NCBI RefSeq assembly: GCF_018139985.1
Contig: NZ_JAGSOU010000002.1
Span: 1 to 64,000, forward strand
DNA length: 64,000 bases
Source: Actibacterium sp. MT2.3-13A
Lineage (GTDB): Bacteria; Pseudomonadota; Alphaproteobacteria; Rhodobacterales; Rhodobacteraceae
Direction: 5' to 3'
Shown here: in pieces, positions 15,292-33,514 of the stretch
How positions within the stretch are numbered: the stretch's first letter is position 1
How the letters are laid out: the number at the start of each line of letters is the position of its first letter
Notes under the pieces: model-generated
What the model was told of the DNA's origin: nothing
The model's input: the letters and a program-made list of their open reading frames with translations, nothing else
Databases searched by the model: none
Program-made: the position numbers and the translations under genes

Positions 15292-15900
15292 TCAGAACAG
15301 GATCTCGATCCGGCCGTCCCCCAGGGTGACGGCCGGCGCGCGCCCGGCCTCCGCCGCGGCCAGCGGCAGCAGGGCGAATTGGACCTCGGCGGCGGACAGG
15401 CCCGCGGCCGGCGCGGGATCGTCCAGCTGCCGCCACAGCCGCGGCTCAATGCGGATACGCGGCCCCGCGCCGATCAGCCGCCAGTGCCCGCCCGCCTCGG
15501 CCAGCCGGATCGTGCCGCCCTGGGGCAGGGCGCAGACCATCCCGAGGACCAGCAGCAGCGCCAGCTTGGCGTCGCGGCGGCCGATCGCGGCGGGCAACTC
15601 GGTGCTCAGGGCGATGCGGCCGCCGTCGAAACTGTCGGCCAGCACCGCGGCCAGTTCGGCGCCGGACAGCGCCTGGCCCTCGGTCGCCGCGCCGAAGGCG
15701 ATGCGGAAGAACCGGATCCAGGCATTGGCGCTGTCCACGCTCTGGGCGATCAGCGCCAGCTCCGGCGCGACGCCGGGCGTCTTGCCGGTCAGGCTCAGCA
15801 GCTCCAGCCCATTGCCGATGGCGCCGAGAGGGTTGATAAGGTCATGACAGATGCGCGAGCCGACCAGCGCGCTGATATCGGGACGGGAACGCGTGGTCAC
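15292..15900 (-). CDS. chpT: Histidine phosphotransferase ChpT
   Basis: A 202-residue dimeric phosphotransferase that in alphaproteobacteria passes phosphate from the hybrid kinase CckA to the response regulators CtrA and CpdR. The diagnostic helix RICHDLINPLGAIGNGLELL (residues about 17-36) carries the phosphorylated His19. The C-terminal half is a degenerate, non-ATP-binding kinase-like fold (GGTIRLAEAGG, LPLAAAEAGR). The length matches the family. It is divergent from the DUF3553 gene. A perfect CtrA-type box lies about 250 bases upstream, before olsB. Confidence 0.88.
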   Translation of the reverse strand: MTTRSRPDISALVGSRICHDLINPLGAIGNGLELLSLTGKTPGVAPELALIAQSVDSANAWIRFFRIAFGAATEGQALSGAELAAVLADSFDGGRIALSTELPAAIGRRDAKLALLLVLGMVCALPQGGTIRLAEAGGHWRLIGAGPRIRIEPRLWRQLDDPAPAAGLSAAEVQFALLPLAAAEAGRAPAVTLGDGRIEILF

Positions 15901-16144: not shown

Positions 16145-16159
16145 TTAACAAAGGGTTAA
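16145..16159. promoter_or_regulatory. Perfect CtrA-type box (TTAA-N7-TTAA) upstream of olsB
   Basis: TTAACAAAGGGTTAA lies in the 145-base gap between the DUF3553 gene and olsB. It matches the full CtrA consensus TTAA-N7-TTAA of alphaproteobacteria. The ChpT gene, whose product helps phosphorylate CtrA, lies just upstream. Binding is inferred from the motif. Confidence 0.6.
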
Positions 16160-16255: not shown

Positions 16256-17035
16256 ATGCGCCCCCCTGAACCCCATTTCGAGCTGCGCCTGGCCCGGACG
16301 CCCGAGGATCTGCGCGCCGCCCAGCGTCTGCGCTACGAGGTCTTCGTGGCGGAACTCGGCGGCGATGGCGCGCTGGTCGATCACGACGCGCGGCTGGAGC
16401 GCGACGAATTCGACCCGTTCTACGACCACCTGCTGCTGATCGACACCCGCCGCGACGCGGCGGCGCTCGACCATGTGGTCGGGGTCTACCGCCTGCTGCG
16501 CGACGACCAGGCCGCGCGCCTGGGGCGATTCTATGTCGAGGACGAATACGACCTGTCGGTTCTGAAACAGAGCGGCCGCAGGCTGCTGGAGCTGGGCCGC
16601 TCCTGCCTGCACCGCGACTATCGGGGCGGCACGGCGATGTATCAGCTGTGGCAGGGGCTGGCCGGCTATGTGCTGGAGCACGGGATCGAGGTTCTGTTCG
16701 GCGTGGCCAGCTTCCACGGCACGGATATCGAGGCGCTGAGAATGCCGCTGTCCTACCTGCATCACGCCCATCTCGCCCCGCCGGAACTGCGCGTGCGCGC
16801 GCAGCCGGCGCATTTCCAGCGGATGGACCTGGTGCCGGCGGAACGGATCGACCGCAAGGCGGCGATGCTGGCGACGCCGGCGCTGATCAAGGCCTATCTG
16901 CGGCTCGGCGGGTTTGTGGGCGAGGGCGCCTATGTCGATCGCGCCTTCAATACCACCGATGTCTGCCTGGTGATGGACACCGAGCGGATGAACGCCAAGA
17001 CGCGCGCGCTCTACACCAGGGGCGTGTCGCGGTGA
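16256..17035 (+). CDS. olsB: L-ornithine N-alpha-acyltransferase OlsB
   Basis: A 259-residue GNAT-like acyltransferase that joins a 3-hydroxy fatty acid from acyl-ACP to ornithine, making lyso-ornithine lipid. Family features: QRLRYEVFVAELGG near 22-35, VVGVYRLLRDDQA near 77-89, LELGRSCLHRDYRGG near 112-126, and a substrate-pocket region containing FGVASFHGTD. The stop overlaps the GTG start of olsA, so the pair is an operon in reaction order. A perfect CtrA-type site lies 97 bases upstream. Confidence 0.9.
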   Translation: MRPPEPHFELRLARTPEDLRAAQRLRYEVFVAELGGDGALVDHDARLERDEFDPFYDHLLLIDTRRDAAALDHVVGVYRLLRDDQAARLGRFYVEDEYDLSVLKQSGRRLLELGRSCLHRDYRGGTAMYQLWQGLAGYVLEHGIEVLFGVASFHGTDIEALRMPLSYLHHAHLAPPELRVRAQPAHFQRMDLVPAERIDRKAAMLATPALIKAYLRLGGFVGEGAYVDRAFNTTDVCLVMDTERMNAKTRALYTRGVSR

Positions 17036-28018: not shown

Positions 28019-28684
28019 TCACTCGTTTCCGGTGACCGGGCGATAGCGTTTCTCCGGGTCCGCCGCCGAAGGGTCGGGCGGCGCCGGGATCCGCGGCGGC
28101 GCGGGCTGCGGGGCGGGTGCGACCGCGGCGCCGCCCAGGGCCGCCGGCGCCGTGCTCTCCGCCCGCGCCGGACGGATCCGGGCCATCGCCTCGGCGAAGC
28201 CCTTCACCGACAGCGGGATCGCGAAGGCGCCCTGGCCGGGATTGGTCACCGATATGCTGGCGCTGCCGCCGCGCGAAAACGCCTGCAGCAGGTCCTCGGG
28301 CACCGTGCCCTCGATCAGGCAGCCCTGCTGGGTGCAGCGCGACAGCCGCACGGCGATGGAATAGCCGGTATCGGTGGCGATGGTCGCCCCCTTCTCCAGG
28401 TCGATGCCCAGCGGCAGGGCGATCTGGGTGCGCATGGCCTGGCGGGCCTCGTCCCAGGCAAAGGTTGCCACCAGGGCGATGGCGCTGCCGTTGTTGATCA
28501 GGATGCGCTGGTAGATCTGGCACTGGCCGACCGGCGCGTCGAAACATTCCAGAACCCAGTCCTGGATGTTCTCGCGGCTGTCGGGTTGCGGGTAGTCGGC
28601 GGTCTGCGCCGACGCCTGGGCCGCCGCCCAGACCAGCGCCAGGGCCGCCGCTGCGCCGGCGGCAATCGGGCGCGTCCTAGGCAC
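28019..28684 (-). CDS. Invasion-associated locus B (IalB) family protein, last gene of the curli operon
   Basis: A 221-residue exported protein. The signal peptide ends near ASA-Q (about residue 26). The mature domain shows the IalB pattern: DWVLECFDAPVGQCQIYQRI near 42-61, LPLGIDLEKGATI, the cysteine pair in LSRCTQQGCLIEG near 113-125, and SVKGFAEAMARI near 159-170. The last 40 residues are Pro/Ala-rich. It begins with GTG inside the end of csgG (8-base overlap), so it is translationally coupled to the curli secretion channel. Its job in curli is not established; a periplasmic accessory role is an inference. Confidence 0.82.
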   Translation of the reverse strand: MPRTRPIAAGAAAALALVWAAAQASAQTADYPQPDSRENIQDWVLECFDAPVGQCQIYQRILINNGSAIALVATFAWDEARQAMRTQIALPLGIDLEKGATIATDTGYSIAVRLSRCTQQGCLIEGTVPEDLLQAFSRGGSASISVTNPGQGAFAIPLSVKGFAEAMARIRPARAESTAPAALGGAAVAPAPQPAPPRIPAPPDPSAADPEKRYRPVTGNE

Positions 28685-29642
28685 CTTCCGCGCCCTCCGC
28701 GGGGGCCTTCGCGGTCTGGGTCTGGGGCGCGGGCGCGGTTTTCGCCGGGGCCGCGGCGGCGGTGGCGGATGCGGCGACCGCCCCCGCCTTGCGCTGCCGG
28801 TAGAGGGCGATGTGGCGACTCTGCTCGGCGGCGTTCTGGAAGGACCACAGCCCGTTCATCGCCCCCTCGATGACCAGGCTGTAGACGGCCAGTTCGATCG
28901 CCTGCCGCACGGCCAGGCCCACCGGCTCGTTGCGGGACAGTCCGGCCTCGATCTCAAGGATCTCATCGGCGGAGACGTAGCGGAACACGTCGCCCCGCAC
29001 GAGCACGGAATAGACCGTCTTCTCGGTCATCACCGAGGTCAGGACCTCGCCGGTGTTCACGCTGACCGCGCGCAGCGACACGGTCAGGCGGTCGCGCCGG
29101 TAGCTGGTCGAGGCGCCGACGCCGAGGATCCGCGCGCCGAAACCGCCGGTCATGCTGTTGGTGTCGTAATCGATGATGCCCCCCTCGAGGATGATGCCGG
29201 CAAAGCGCAGCGGCGGCAGGACCGAGCGGGAGGTCCCGCGATAGGCGAGGTTGGTCTGGTCGATCAGGTTGCGCTCGGTCAGCAGGTTCTGCAGGCCCGC
29301 GCGTTCGACCACGTTGAACCAGCCCGCGCCGCCGACATCCTTCAGAACGTCGATGAGGACGGCCGTGCCGCCCTGGGTCACGGCCTTGGAAAAGCGTGAG
29401 AAATTGTCGGCGGGCTTCTGCTGGCCGGTCTGGTCGGAATAGCCGTAGACCGCCACGTCCACCGGGCGCCGCGGCGCGGGCAGCCGCTCCAGTTCGACCC
29501 CGATCGCGGTCTTGGTGGCGAAGGAGGGCGGCGCGCCCTGAAGCTCGGGAAGGTCGCCGGGTGCGGCGCAGGCGCCCAGCAGGGCCGCCGAAAGGATCAG
29601 GGCTGCCGCCCCCGGCGCCGATCTGAAATGGAGTTTTGGCAT
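28677..29642 (-). CDS. csgG: Curli secretion channel lipoprotein CsgG
   Basis: A 321-residue outer-membrane lipoprotein that forms the nonameric channel for curli subunits. The lipobox is LLGAC near residues 21-25. The core has RPVDVAVYGYSDQTGQQKP near 59-77, the GWFNVVERAGLQNLLTER region near 104-121, GGIIDYDTNS with the membrane-hairpin segment following, and VSLRAVSVNTGEVL. The C-terminal tail of about 40 residues (Ala/Pro/Thr-rich) is an extension. ATG at 29642 is chosen because it gives a normal lipoprotein signal. Confidence 0.94.
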   Translation of the reverse strand: MPKLHFRSAPGAAALILSAALLGACAAPGDLPELQGAPPSFATKTAIGVELERLPAPRRPVDVAVYGYSDQTGQQKPADNFSRFSKAVTQGGTAVLIDVLKDVGGAGWFNVVERAGLQNLLTERNLIDQTNLAYRGTSRSVLPPLRFAGIILEGGIIDYDTNSMTGGFGARILGVGASTSYRRDRLTVSLRAVSVNTGEVLTSVMTEKTVYSVLVRGDVFRYVSADEILEIEAGLSRNEPVGLAVRQAIELAVYSLVIEGAMNGLWSFQNAAEQSRHIALYRQRKAGAVAASATAAAAPAKTAPAPQTQTAKAPAEGAEGA

Positions 29643-29725
29643 GGTCGTCCCGCCTTGATAATCATCAATGAAATCGACCGGCGCATGCCGAAGGCGCATG
29701 CGCCGCGCCCGTTGCCCTGTTGCGA

Positions 29726-30064
29726 TCAGGGGTTGGTGCCGCCGGTTCCGCCCGTGCCCCCAGTGCCGCCGGTCCCCCCCGTGCCGCCCGTTCCGCCCGT
29801 GCCGCCGCCCCCCAGGCCGCCAAGGTCGATGGTGATCGGCGGAAAGGTGATCTGCGGCACGCCGCCGCCGCTGCTGCCGCCATTGCCGGTGAACTGGTTC
29901 TGGCTCTGGGCCAGGCCGAGAAGATAGTCGATGTTGTTGGGATTTCCGCCGAAGCCGGGATTGACCGGGGTGTATATGAGGTCCGTCGCGGCGGCGCCGG
30001 TCGCGCTGATCGCGGCGGCCCCGAAGAGCACCGCCGCTGCCAGAAATTTCATTCGGGGTCTCAT
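29726..30064 (-). CDS. csgF: Curli assembly factor CsgF, shortened, with Gly-Gly-Thr repeat tail
   Basis: CsgF docks in the CsgG channel and couples secretion to nucleation. This 112-residue form has a signal peptide to about residue 26, then the conserved mature N-terminus with NPGFGGNPNN at 35-44 and LLGLAQSQNQF at 48-58, the part that binds inside CsgG. The globular C-terminal half of E. coli CsgF is missing; instead there is a Gly-rich stretch and eight GGT units ending NP. The start ATG follows TTGGAG. It lies between csgB-like and csgG genes. Confidence 0.88.
   Translation of the reverse strand: MRPRMKFLAAAVLFGAAAISATGAAATDLIYTPVNPGFGGNPNNIDYLLGLAQSQNQFTGNGGSSGGGVPQITFPPITIDLGGLGGGGTGGTGGTGGTGGTGGTGGTGGTNP
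29735..29806 (-). repeat. Eight tandem 9-bp units encoding Gly-Gly-Thr at the CsgF C-terminus
   Basis: Eight in-frame units encode GGT. Third positions vary between units (Thr codons ACC, ACG and ACT; Gly codons GGC, GGA and GGG), so the protein pattern is kept while the DNA has drifted. Confidence 0.9.
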
Positions 30065-30080
30065 GCGTGTCTCCAATCGG

Positions 30081-30680
30081 TCAGTTGAGCTTCACCACCG
30101 TGCCCGGCGGCGCGTTCCGGATGACGATGCCGCCGTTGTAGTTCTGGCCGGCCTGGCCGTAGACCACGGTGGTGCTGGTGGAATCGACCAGCGCCACGGA
30201 CGCTCCCAGCCCGTCGCCCAGCTGCACGGTGCTGACCGCGTTGTCGGCACCGCGGAGGATCCCGACCAGCGAGTCGTTGTTGCTGCCGAACTGCGCCTGG
30301 GCGATGGTGCTGCCGGGCGAGTCCTCGATCACCCCCACCGCTCTGTTCGACTGGCCGAGCTGGATCGAGGCCAGAGCCGCCCCCGGGCTGTTCGTCGAAT
30401 AGGCGCTGGCCCTGTTGCCGCTGCCCTGTTGCACGATGATGGAGGTCGCGCTGCGGTTCGTGCTTTCCGCGGAGCCCAGCCCGTTGGGAAGGGTGGCCGT
30501 GTAGGGATTTTGTCCGTTGGCGACAACGAGTTGTTCGAGCGAGAAATTCCCGACGCTGAACGAGAGATCCTGCGCCTGAGCCGCGGTCGCGAGACCCAGC
30601 GCCAGCAGCGCCCCCGCCACGCCGGCAGGGCAGCGCGGCCAGGGGCGCCGGCGGATCGGGCGGCTGCGTTGCATGGTCAT
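30081..30680 (-). CDS. csgB: Curlin-repeat protein, CsgB-like minor subunit
   Basis: A 199-residue secreted protein. The signal peptide is long and basic, ending near AQA-Q (about residue 36). The mature part has irregular curlin-type repeats with the Q-x-G-x-x-N pattern (IIVQQGSGNRASAY, SIQLGQSNRAVGV, QAQFGSNNDSLVGI, TVQLGDGLGASVAL). They are less regular than in the csgA-like gene, which fits a nucleator role. The C-terminus ends VVKLN. CsgB rather than a second CsgA is inferred from position and repeat irregularity. Confidence 0.75.
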   Translation of the reverse strand: MTMQRSRPIRRRPWPRCPAGVAGALLALGLATAAQAQDLSFSVGNFSLEQLVVANGQNPYTATLPNGLGSAESTNRSATSIIVQQGSGNRASAYSTNSPGAALASIQLGQSNRAVGVIEDSPGSTIAQAQFGSNNDSLVGILRGADNAVSTVQLGDGLGASVALVDSTSTTVVYGQAGQNYNGGIVIRNAPPGTVVKLN

Positions 30681-30719: not shown

Positions 30720-31085
30720 TCAAATATCCGGGAGCGCGCGCGCCCCGCTGCACTCCGTCCGCGTCGCGCCATCCGTCAATGTGACCCGCACGGTGGCCAT
30801 CGCGCCTGACCTGTTGTTTACCACAATTCTGGAAAACCGTGTAGGTTCCCGACCGGACAGCATCACCGAGCCGCTTTGCTGCGACACGGAGAGGTTGCCG
30901 CCGGCGCGGATTTCGGCGGTCACGCTGTACCGCGCCGTCACCTCCCGGCCGGAATCGGCCACGCTTTGAATGACGGTGAAATCGCCCTCCACCTCGAACC
31001 GGACCGAACAGCTGAGCGCGGCCGCGGGATCTGGGGCAAGGACCAGCATGCTGGCCAGGACATGAGCGATGAAACGGCGCGGCAT
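30720..31085 (-). CDS. csgH: CsgH-like curli assembly protein
   Basis: A 121-residue exported protein with a signal peptide to about residue 23 and a small beta-rich mature domain (SCSVRFEVEG, TARYSVTAEI, SVSQQSGSVMLSG, SRIVVNNRSGAMATVRVTLTDG). Two cysteines, near 26 and 113, could form a disulfide. The size, immunoglobulin-like strand pattern and place between curlin genes match CsgH, the alphaproteobacterial counterpart of CsgC that keeps curlin from polymerising in the periplasm. Confidence 0.72.
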   Translation of the reverse strand: MPRRFIAHVLASMLVLAPDPAAALSCSVRFEVEGDFTVIQSVADSGREVTARYSVTAEIRAGGNLSVSQQSGSVMLSGREPTRFSRIVVNNRSGAMATVRVTLTDGATRTECSGARALPDI

Positions 31086-31155: not shown

Positions 31156-32127
31156 TCAGCGGTTGTTCTGATAGTTGACCGCTTCGTTGTTGGTCCCCGT
31201 CTGGAGGATCGCGCTCCGGTTGTTGGTGCCGAGCTGGAGATTGGCCGCCGAGTTGCTGGCCGCGCCCATCGCGCCGAAGGGCGTGCCGCCGCCGGGCAGC
31301 ACCGTCGTCCCGATCGGAAGCCCGTCGCCGGTGCCGAACATGTCCGTGGTGAAGCTCTTCGTCGGGTCGATCGTGGTCAGCGACGCGACCAGGGTGGTGC
31401 CGCCCTGGTTGATGTAGGACTGGTTGGCGCCGCCTTCCTGCAGCGAGGCGACGGTGTTGTTCGTGCCGTCCTGGAAGCTGACCGAGGTGTTGCTGTTGCC
31501 CACCTGGGCATGGGCGGCAAGATTGCCCTGCTGCGCGGTGTCGCCCGACTGCAGGGCGATCGCGGCGTTGTTGTCGCCCAGCTGTGCGATGGCCGCCGCG
31601 TGATCGTTGCCGTCCTGCACGGCCGCGGCCGTGTTGCCGTCGCCGACCTGGGTGATGGCCGCCTCGTGGTTGGCGTAGGACTGGCTGACCAGGGCCGCGT
31701 TGTTGTCGCCGACCTGCAGCGTCGCCGACTCGTTCCAGCCGCCGATCTGCATGTTGACGGCGGCGTTGTCGTTGCCCAGCTGGAACTGGACGTTGCGGCT
31801 GAAGTTGCCGGCGCCGCCGGGATCGAGGCCGATGCTCGGGTTGTTGTTGGCGCCTTGGGCGTTGGCCGTGCCGCCGGCGATCACGCCGTCGCCGACCTCG
31901 GCCGAGGCCAGTTCCTGGTCGCCGCCGGTCAGGCCGTTGTCACCCACTGCGCTGGCGCCCTCGGTGGCGACGACCGCCTGGGTGCTGTCATCGGAGTTGA
32001 TCGAAGATGCCTGTGTGCCTGCGGTTGCCGAGGCCTCGTCGCCGGGGCCGGTCCCGGCGGTTTCGGCGGCGAAGGCCGCCCCTGCAAGCGAGAGTACAGC
32101 CGTGGTCGTGAGAAAAATACGTTTCAT
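31156..32127 (-). CDS. csgA: Curlin-repeat protein, CsgA-like major amyloid subunit
   Basis: A 323-residue secreted protein with a signal peptide to about residue 20. Residues about 21-108 are a Gly/Ala/Ser/Asp-rich region. From about 112 to 240 come six or more curlin repeats with the Q-x-G-x-x-N-x-A pattern (QFQLGNDNAAV, TLQVGDNNAAL, ITQVGDGNTAA, IAQLGDNNAAI, HAQVGNSNTSV). After a 50-residue linker two more repeats close the protein (NLQLGTNNRSAI, LQTGTNNEAV). This is about twice the length of E. coli CsgA. An AGGAAGGAAG ribosome site precedes the ATG. It is the first gene of the curli operon. Confidence 0.88.
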   Translation of the reverse strand: MKRIFLTTTAVLSLAGAAFAAETAGTGPGDEASATAGTQASSINSDDSTQAVVATEGASAVGDNGLTGGDQELASAEVGDGVIAGGTANAQGANNNPSIGLDPGGAGNFSRNVQFQLGNDNAAVNMQIGGWNESATLQVGDNNAALVSQSYANHEAAITQVGDGNTAAAVQDGNDHAAAIAQLGDNNAAIALQSGDTAQQGNLAAHAQVGNSNTSVSFQDGTNNTVASLQEGGANQSYINQGGTTLVASLTTIDPTKSFTTDMFGTGDGLPIGTTVLPGGGTPFGAMGAASNSAANLQLGTNNRSAILQTGTNNEAVNYQNNR

Positions 32128-32218: not shown

Positions 32219-32233
32219 TTAACTGCTAGTTAA
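32219..32233. promoter_or_regulatory. Perfect CtrA-type box upstream of the curlin gene
   Basis: TTAACTGCTAGTTAA (TTAA-N7-TTAA) lies 92 bases upstream of the csgA-like start, in the gap shared with the divergent small-protein gene. It is a full match to the CtrA consensus. Confidence 0.6.
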
Positions 32234-32251
32234 TTGCTAAGTCCCTTCGTG

Positions 32252-32285
32252 GACTAGTAAGTTTCGACTAGTTGGTTTCAGCTAG
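32252..32285. repeat. Tandem 14-bp CTAG-containing repeats in the curli control region
   Basis: GACTAGTAAGTTTC (32252-32265) is followed directly by GACTAGTTGGTTTC (32266-32279) and a partial AGCTAGAAA. CTAG occurs at 32226, 32254, 32268 and 32282, spacing 28, 14 and 14. CTAG is generally rare in proteobacterial DNA, so this array looks like a regulator-binding site. Confidence 0.6.
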
Positions 32286-32382
32286 AAATCCCGGCCTGGG
32301 CGCCGCGCCGGACGGAAAACGGTTGACCGGCATCCGCGGGCGGACCGATAGTCGGGGACAGGATGTCGCTCGGAGACAGACC

Positions 32383-32679
32383 ATGCCGAAACTGATTTCG
32401 ACCCTGGTTTTGATCGCGGGATCTGCGCTCTTCGGTGCCCAGGCTGCCGCCGATACCCGGGCCACCGTTCCCCAGATCTCCGGGGGCGACGGCGCCTTCG
32501 TCGTCCAGGTGCCCGGCGGGCAGCGCCAGATGGCGCCGATCAACCGCGGCCAGACCCCGCCGCGCCGCGCCGCACAGACGCCGCCGCCGCGCCGCGATTT
32601 CATCCTTGATTTCGGCGGGCAGGGCGCGCCGTTTACCCTGCCGTCGGTGCGCGAGGGCGTGCGGATCTCGCTCAACTGA
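32383..32679 (+). CDS. Small proline/arginine-rich secreted protein, divergent from curli operon
   Basis: A 98-residue protein with a signal peptide (hydrophobic to about residue 20, cleavage near AAA-D). The mature part has a short ordered start (VPQISGGDGAFVVQVPGG), a Pro/Arg-rich middle (about 50-72), and an end FILDFGGQGAPFTLPSVREG. CGGAGA lies upstream of the ATG. It is not CsgE by length or sequence. The position between the curlin gene and the LuxR regulator gene suggests a curli-related or matrix role. No family was recognised. Confidence 0.65.
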   Translation: MPKLISTLVLIAGSALFGAQAAADTRATVPQISGGDGAFVVQVPGGQRQMAPINRGQTPPRRAAQTPPPRRDFILDFGGQGAPFTLPSVREGVRISLN

Positions 32680-32738
32680 GCACGCCACGACGGGGCTCTC
32701 TGGCGTCAGCGCGTTTACAAAACGGGCCGGTTGCGTTA

Positions 32739-32753
32739 TTAACTTTGAATTAA
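32739..32753. promoter_or_regulatory. Perfect CtrA-type box upstream of the LuxR regulator
   Basis: TTAACTTTGAATTAA (TTAA-N7-TTAA) lies 60 bases upstream of the chosen start of the LuxR-family gene, in an AT-rich promoter-like stretch. Confidence 0.6.
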
Positions 32754-32812
32754 GAGTTCATTTTCTGTTTTTGATTAATGGTGCATTGTGTGTTCCGGGG
32801 GGGGCGTATTTT

Positions 32813-33514
32813 GTGGTGTCTGGAGCATCCGGACCCGTAGACTGGGTCGTTCTATCGAATAGTCGTCTTGAGCAGATGGCGCTGGCGCGGGTTGCAGAAA
32901 AACTCCGGGGCGCGCGGGGGGCGTGTGCCGATCACGACCGCGAGTCGCTCAATGCGATGCTGCCCAAGGGCGCCGAGCCGTCGCTCATCCTGACCTGCCT
33001 GGGCCGGCAGGATCTGCAGAACGGCAGGCTGGAGGAACTGGCCGGGCGTTTCCCGAAGGCGCGGGTGGTTGTCTTCCTTCAGGCGGGGCCGCCGCCCGCT
33101 GCCATCGACATGTTGCCCGACAACGTTCGCGCCATCATGTGCTCCGATTGCACCGAGAGACAGATCTGCCAGGCGATCGAGCTGGTCGCCACGGGCTACC
33201 TGCTCCTGCCGGGCGCCTCCGGCGGCGCGCAGGCCGGCCACGGGGCGGTTCCCGGCGTGGTTCCCGCACCCGACCTTCCTGCCGTCAGGCCGCCGGAACT
33301 GACCGGGCGTGAGTGGCAGGTCTGCTGCGAGGTTTCCAAGGGCTCTTCGAACAAGCAGATCGCGCGGCGCCTGGGCATCGCCGTCAACACGGTGAACGTG
33401 CATGTCGGCTCGATCATGCGCAAGCTCGGGGTCCACAACCGGACGCAGATCGCATTGCGCATCGCCAACGGGGTAGCCCGGAAAAAGATCGCCGAGCACC
33501 GGACCGATTTTTGA
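32813..33514 (+). CDS. LuxR-family (CsgD-like) transcriptional regulator
   Basis: A 233-residue regulator. The N-terminal 130 residues look like a degenerate receiver domain (WVVLSNSRLEQMALARVAEKL at the start, later RAIMCSDCTERQICQAIELVATGYLLLP). The C-terminal domain is a LuxR helix-turn-helix (LTGREWQVCCEVSKGSSNKQI, then VNTVNVHVGSIMRKLGVHNRTQ). No clear phospho-acceptor Asp is seen, as in CsgD. The GTG at 32813 is chosen because a G-rich ribosome site precedes it and because the first strand of the receiver fold begins just after; the first ATG (32876) would cut into the domain. Confidence 0.8.
   Translation: MVSGASGPVDWVVLSNSRLEQMALARVAEKLRGARGACADHDRESLNAMLPKGAEPSLILTCLGRQDLQNGRLEELAGRFPKARVVVFLQAGPPPAAIDMLPDNVRAIMCSDCTERQICQAIELVATGYLLLPGASGGAQAGHGAVPGVVPAPDLPAVRPPELTGREWQVCCEVSKGSSNKQIARRLGIAVNTVNVHVGSIMRKLGVHNRTQIALRIANGVARKKIAEHRTDF

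Follow-up and report, generated by a model that had tools for sequence, protein, structure and literature searches.

As a master regulator, CtrA governs the cell cycle of alphaproteobacteria and, within Rhodobacterales, also motility and traits linked to quorum sensing. Does it directly control the production of curli as well? This question is raised by the curli locus of Actibacterium sp. MT2.3-13A, for which a first-pass annotation of a stretch of 64,000 bp (contig NZ_JAGSOU010000002.1, positions 1–64,000; referred to as the window) had proposed CtrA control on the basis of two TTAA-N7-TTAA words in the curli control regions. Few studies have addressed how alphaproteobacteria regulate curli; a review on Agrobacterium noted curlin clusters and assigned no role to them (PMC4018554). 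Our literature search, which also covered curli csgG in Rhodobacteraceae, yielded no link between CtrA and curli, though its thin coverage of subscription papers makes this weak evidence. If curli are under direct CtrA control, matrix amyloid and with it the choice between swimming and sticking would be coupled to the CtrA phosphorelay, and the prediction is a sharp one, being confined to two 15-bp sites and two promoters.

Gene content of the curli locus

Annotation of the locus revealed a curli gene set on the reverse strand, namely csgA encoding the major curlin with its curlin repeats (31156–32127, PF07012), csgH for the alphaproteobacterial curli chaperone (30720–31085, NF041112), a gene for a CsgB-like second curlin (30081–30680), csgF (29726–30076, PF10614), csgG for the outer-membrane curli secretion pore (28677–29699, PF03783) and, at the end of the set, a gene for an IalB-family protein (28019–28684). 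The latter was assigned by PF06776 together with conserved synteny, and the CsgB-like gene, which is without a Pfam match, by its position and by homology to the equivalent gene of relatives. On the forward strand, a gene for a small secreted protein (32383–32679) is followed by luxR (32816–33514). The small gene, for which Pfam gave no match, is also conserved in relatives, again between csgA and luxR, and its product is possibly an unrecognised curli accessory protein.

The luxR gene encodes an orphan regulator of the NarL/CsgD type that combines a GerE helix-turn-helix (HTH, PF00196) with a receiver-like N-terminal part, in which no phospho-acceptor Asp is evident. A profile match to NarL/VraR structures spans both parts. 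Its start was set at the GTG at 32816, since relative G370 starts likewise. HTH, receiver-like N-terminus and curli-adjacent synteny together characterise it as a CsgD-type regulator; the CsgD equivalog model NF007505 scored 40.3 bits, below its cut-off of 250, and matched the HTH region only, so that the product was not filed as CsgD and is described as CsgD-like in its place and probable role.

In several relatives the small secreted protein carries a C-terminal LPSVREGVRI-type motif, and a second curlin-repeat gene is present in the same genome (G000:C2:140338-140655, L079), with no CtrA box nearby. Curlin matches of the broader family, comprising most of L064–L079, were rejected as different curlin genes without csgA-luxR synteny.

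Two exact CtrA-type boxes in the curli control regions

Inspection of the window confirmed that both words are exact TTAA-N7-TTAA matches. Box 1 (32219–32233) reads TTAACTGCTAGTTAA from position 32219 and TTAACTAGCAGTTAAC on the reverse strand, i.e., that of csgA, where it also exactly matches TTAAC-N5-GTTAAC, the full form of the motif cited for Dinoroseobacter shibae (PMC7232146). Box 2 (32739–32753, forward strand, TTAACTTTGAATTAA) is without the outer G/C of the preferred motif. Box 1 is separated by 91 bp from the ATG of csgA and by 149 bp from that of the divergent small ORF, and box 2 ends 62 bp before the likely start of luxR. As judged by eye, the right half of box 2 (TTAAGA, 32750–32755) may serve as the -35 element of a luxR promoter, with ATTAAT (32774–32779) as a possible -10 element after a spacer of 18 nt.

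A third perfect copy, absent from the first-pass annotation, was detected at 16145–16159 (forward strand), giving three copies in the window compared to 0.01 expected from dinucleotide-preserving shuffles of the window. When only the two AT-rich intergenic regions were shuffled, 0.005 and 0.003 boxes were expected, so that local AT richness does not explain the boxes.

Spacing specificity and further sites in the genome

The first-pass annotation had suggested scanning the genome for the motif, and a pattern search over all 51 contigs of the genome (3.6 Mb) for TTAA pairs with spacings of 0–30 revealed N7 as the sole strongly enriched spacing. Ten pairs were found at N7 compared to 20 summed over the other 30 spacings, which held on average 0.67 pairs each and a maximum of four at any single one. 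The Poisson probability of ten pairs at N7 is 2.6e-9, or 5e-7 with the two curli boxes excluded. The other spacings provide a clean control, as the word TTAA occurs only rarely in DNA of such high GC content. Two of the ten copies share a stretch of 535 bp at the curli locus. A sample of 400 kb from the same genome was left out of the site rates because it had been chosen around sites.

The genome encodes a Rhodobacter-type CtrA (G000:C22:135867-136550; NF045991, 424.7 bits with a cut-off of 350). Outside the curli locus, boxes were located 56 bp upstream of a divL-like multi-PAS gene, 45 bp upstream of sciP (DUF1153), itself just upstream of ctrA, 15 bp upstream of cckA (CckA models being the best NCBIfam matches), 78 bp upstream of a sigma-32-like gene flanked by motB and a fliK-like gene, 90 bp upstream of a gene for a MipZ/ParA-like ATPase, 49 bp upstream of an MshEN-glycosyltransferase gene, and within the intergenic region of a Flp-pilus (cpaB) locus. 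The third box of the window lies 96 bp upstream of a gene for an OlsB-like GNAT acyltransferase (16256–17035). Though chpT (15292–15900, reverse strand) is also near, a short forward-strand ORF separates it from this box; the olsB-like gene was therefore regarded as the adjacent target, and the box was rejected as a chpT site. Identities of the neighbouring genes were derived from Pfam and NCBIfam, the names divL, olsB, fliK, and flp being given by resemblance. Where the next gene is clear, the distances from box to start range from 15 to 96 bp, and the curli values of 91 and 62 bp fall within this range. Overall, this gene set reads like a CtrA regulon, and the site list agrees with the putative CtrA targets published for D. 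shibae, which include ctrA, cckA, divL, rpoH, and flagellar genes (PMC4046655). Spacing-specific enrichment together with known targets indicates that this genome uses the word as a CtrA motif.

Boxes at the curli loci of relatives

A search for close relatives of this genome found none of the same genus, and nine other Rhodobacteraceae curli clusters were used for comparison. Perfect boxes were identified in the csgA/small gene/luxR control region of three genera. In G162 (Cognatishimia sp. MH4019) and G546 of the same genus, the box follows the small gene and precedes luxR by 168 bp; in G616 and G472, it precedes the small gene by 67 and 80 bp, respectively. In G370, representing a further lineage, a perfect box precedes csgG by 73 bp. 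The csgA-luxR regions of G370, G503, G707, G784, and G589 revealed no perfect box, and the more distant Nitratireductor loci, with an equivalent curli operon and luxR further away, had no box either. G413 and G795 do not show the canonical csgA-luxR arrangement. Boxes with one mismatch (G503, G616, G472) were not counted, since these are far less specific.

In the control regions of nine clusters including that of the window, six TTAA pairs had the N7 spacing, the other 30 spacings together accounted for five, and shuffles of these regions gave an expectation of 0.11 N7 pairs. Among the loci of the relatives, four sites fell into 9.8 kb of control region and one, likewise inside the curli cluster, into the other 158.6 kb. 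With the window left out and the Cognatishimia pair counted once, a csgA-luxR box was present in three independent lineages compared to about 0.2 expected (P ~1e-3), an expectation based on the site density of each genome, with the site counts of G707 and G784 and an intergenic share of 10% being assumed.

According to the first-pass annotation, a lack of conservation in related genomes would refute CtrA control. Further genera do have boxes at their curli loci, but roughly every second canonical locus is without a perfect one in the csgA-luxR control region, and across the loci the position shifts between promoters, with no one fixed place. Both states occur within one genus (G616 with, G707 without the box), which shows box turnover, and the link between curli and CtrA thus appears recurrent but labile. 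In G162 and G546, a terminator-like inverted repeat directly follows the box and shares its last bases (L061:8700-8724; at the same place in L108, reading AACCTGTCCTTTTAGACAGGTT), so that conservation there may partly have another cause than CtrA.

A CTAG array upstream of csgA

The csgA control region also harbors an array of short repeats (32226–32285) with CTAG at 32226 and, at a 14-bp spacing, at 32254, 32268, and 32282, and with CTAA at 32237. The first CTAG falls into the spacer of box 1, and a 14-bp direct repeat (GACTAGTAAGTTTC/GACTAGTTGGTTTC) contains two of the four words. Four CTAG words within 60 bp compare with 0.05 expected per 250 bp, and a genome-wide search for CTAG pairs 6–30 bases apart revealed three linked pairs nowhere else. 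In 13 curli loci taken together, the 250 bp preceding csgA held 18 CTAG words compared to 2.2 expected, mostly 100–160 bp before the ATG, and the element is also present at loci without a CtrA box (G784, G589, G795, Nitratireductor). It is probably an operator array for the curli LuxR regulator, with LuxR as its presumed ligand.

Interpretation of the boxes and alternative explanations

The exact boxes, the spacing enrichment, the encoded CtrA, the placement of other boxes before recognised CtrA-pathway and target genes, and the recurrence at curli loci of relatives all point to the control proposed in the first-pass annotation. The boxes appear to be a genuine regulatory feature that is specific and conserved in part, and the two promoters are putative new targets of a known regulator. 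We predict with good confidence that both boxes are CtrA binding sites, by which the curli locus would become part of the CtrA regulon, with CtrA acting on luxR as well as on csgA.

The main rival reading is that the functional CtrA site is the box before luxR, or before the small gene and luxR, alone, and that box 1 is a by-product of LuxR CTAG operator units (TGCTAGTTAA / TTGCTAAG) holding TTAA at the right distance by chance. Consistent with this, the csgA-luxR boxes of relatives lie before luxR (G162, G546) or 67–80 bp before the small gene (G616, G472) and never near csgA, CTAG units occur inside and adjoining box 1, and no clear -10 element was seen by eye for csgA. Nevertheless, box 1 is the better of the two in matching the longer TTAAC-N5-GTTAAC form exactly, and such a box is hardly expected in the shuffled csgA upstream region (0.005), so that we rate this reading as rather unlikely.

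It is improbable that both boxes are chance words of AT-rich promoter DNA. For this explanation speak the control word AATT-N7-AATT, with 14 sites in the genome compared to ten of TTAA-N7-TTAA, and the missing perfect box in several relatives. The AATT count indicates that it is the spacing rather than the raw count that is unusual, and as a control it is uninformative because AATT is the commoner word; both the spacing-specific enrichment with its regulon-like gene set and the recurrence in three independent lineages argue against chance. Binding of the TTAA pairs by a different regulator whose half-site overlaps, e.g., one of the FnrL/Dnr type, is very improbable, since, despite the published overlap (TTAAC-N4-GTCAA at D. 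shibae nosR2; PMC7232146), the Fnr-type site has a spacing of 4 instead of 5 and GTCAA as its second half, to which neither curli box fits, and the genome-wide enrichment falls at the CtrA spacing.

With both boxes taken as CtrA sites, phosphorylated CtrA from the CckA-ChpT-CtrA relay would bind box 2 across the -35 region of the luxR promoter, most likely activating luxR, and would also bind box 1 upstream of csgA. There, CtrA may either activate or gate, the latter via the overlap with the LuxR array. The LuxR protein would in turn bind the CTAG array and turn on the curli operon, resulting in a feed-forward loop in which CtrA reaches csgA both via LuxR and directly. Since one CTAG lies inside box 1, CtrA and LuxR would cooperate or compete at this site. 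Curli production in these bacteria is thus conceived as probably wired to the CtrA programme, and the connection to the cell cycle or to gene-transfer agents, as put forward in the first-pass annotation, is plausible. A more general proposal, which we make tentatively and at somewhat less than even chances, is that in Rhodobacterales CtrA directly governs extracellular amyloid via a feed-forward loop with overlapping CtrA and LuxR operators, this input having been repeatedly gained or re-positioned at luxR, at the small gene and luxR, at csgA, or at csgG, depending on the genus.

Comparison with known systems

In E. coli and Salmonella, curli are controlled by the divergent arrangement of csgD and csgBAC. 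The locus studied here resembles it in that a LuxR-family regulator with a receiver-like N-terminus is divergent from the curlin operon and operator-like repeats are found upstream of the curlin gene. It differs in that the resemblance to CsgD is restricted to the HTH region, a gene for a secreted protein lies in between, and an input from CtrA is predicted.

Target promoters of CtrA with TTAA-N7-TTAAC have been described for Caulobacter, D. shibae, Rhodobacter sphaeroides, and Hyphomonas (PMC6180460, PMC4046655, PMC7200025, PMC7232146), and the boxes reported here agree with these in motif and spacing and, as far as the distances to the gene starts suggest, in a promoter-proximal place. The kinds of neighbours are also shared, i.e., divL, cckA, the ctrA/sciP region, sigma-32, flagellar, and pilus genes. 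As at the curli luxR, CtrA-type boxes precede a LuxR-family gene in the case of D. shibae luxR2 (PMC4046655), but that gene belongs to the luxR2I2 operon and encodes a quorum-sensing regulator, while the luxR gene here is an orphan of the NarL/CsgD type beside curli genes. In contrast to the CtrA promoters of the papers searched, which included none of this kind, the predicted target is a curli amyloid operon together with its own regulator.
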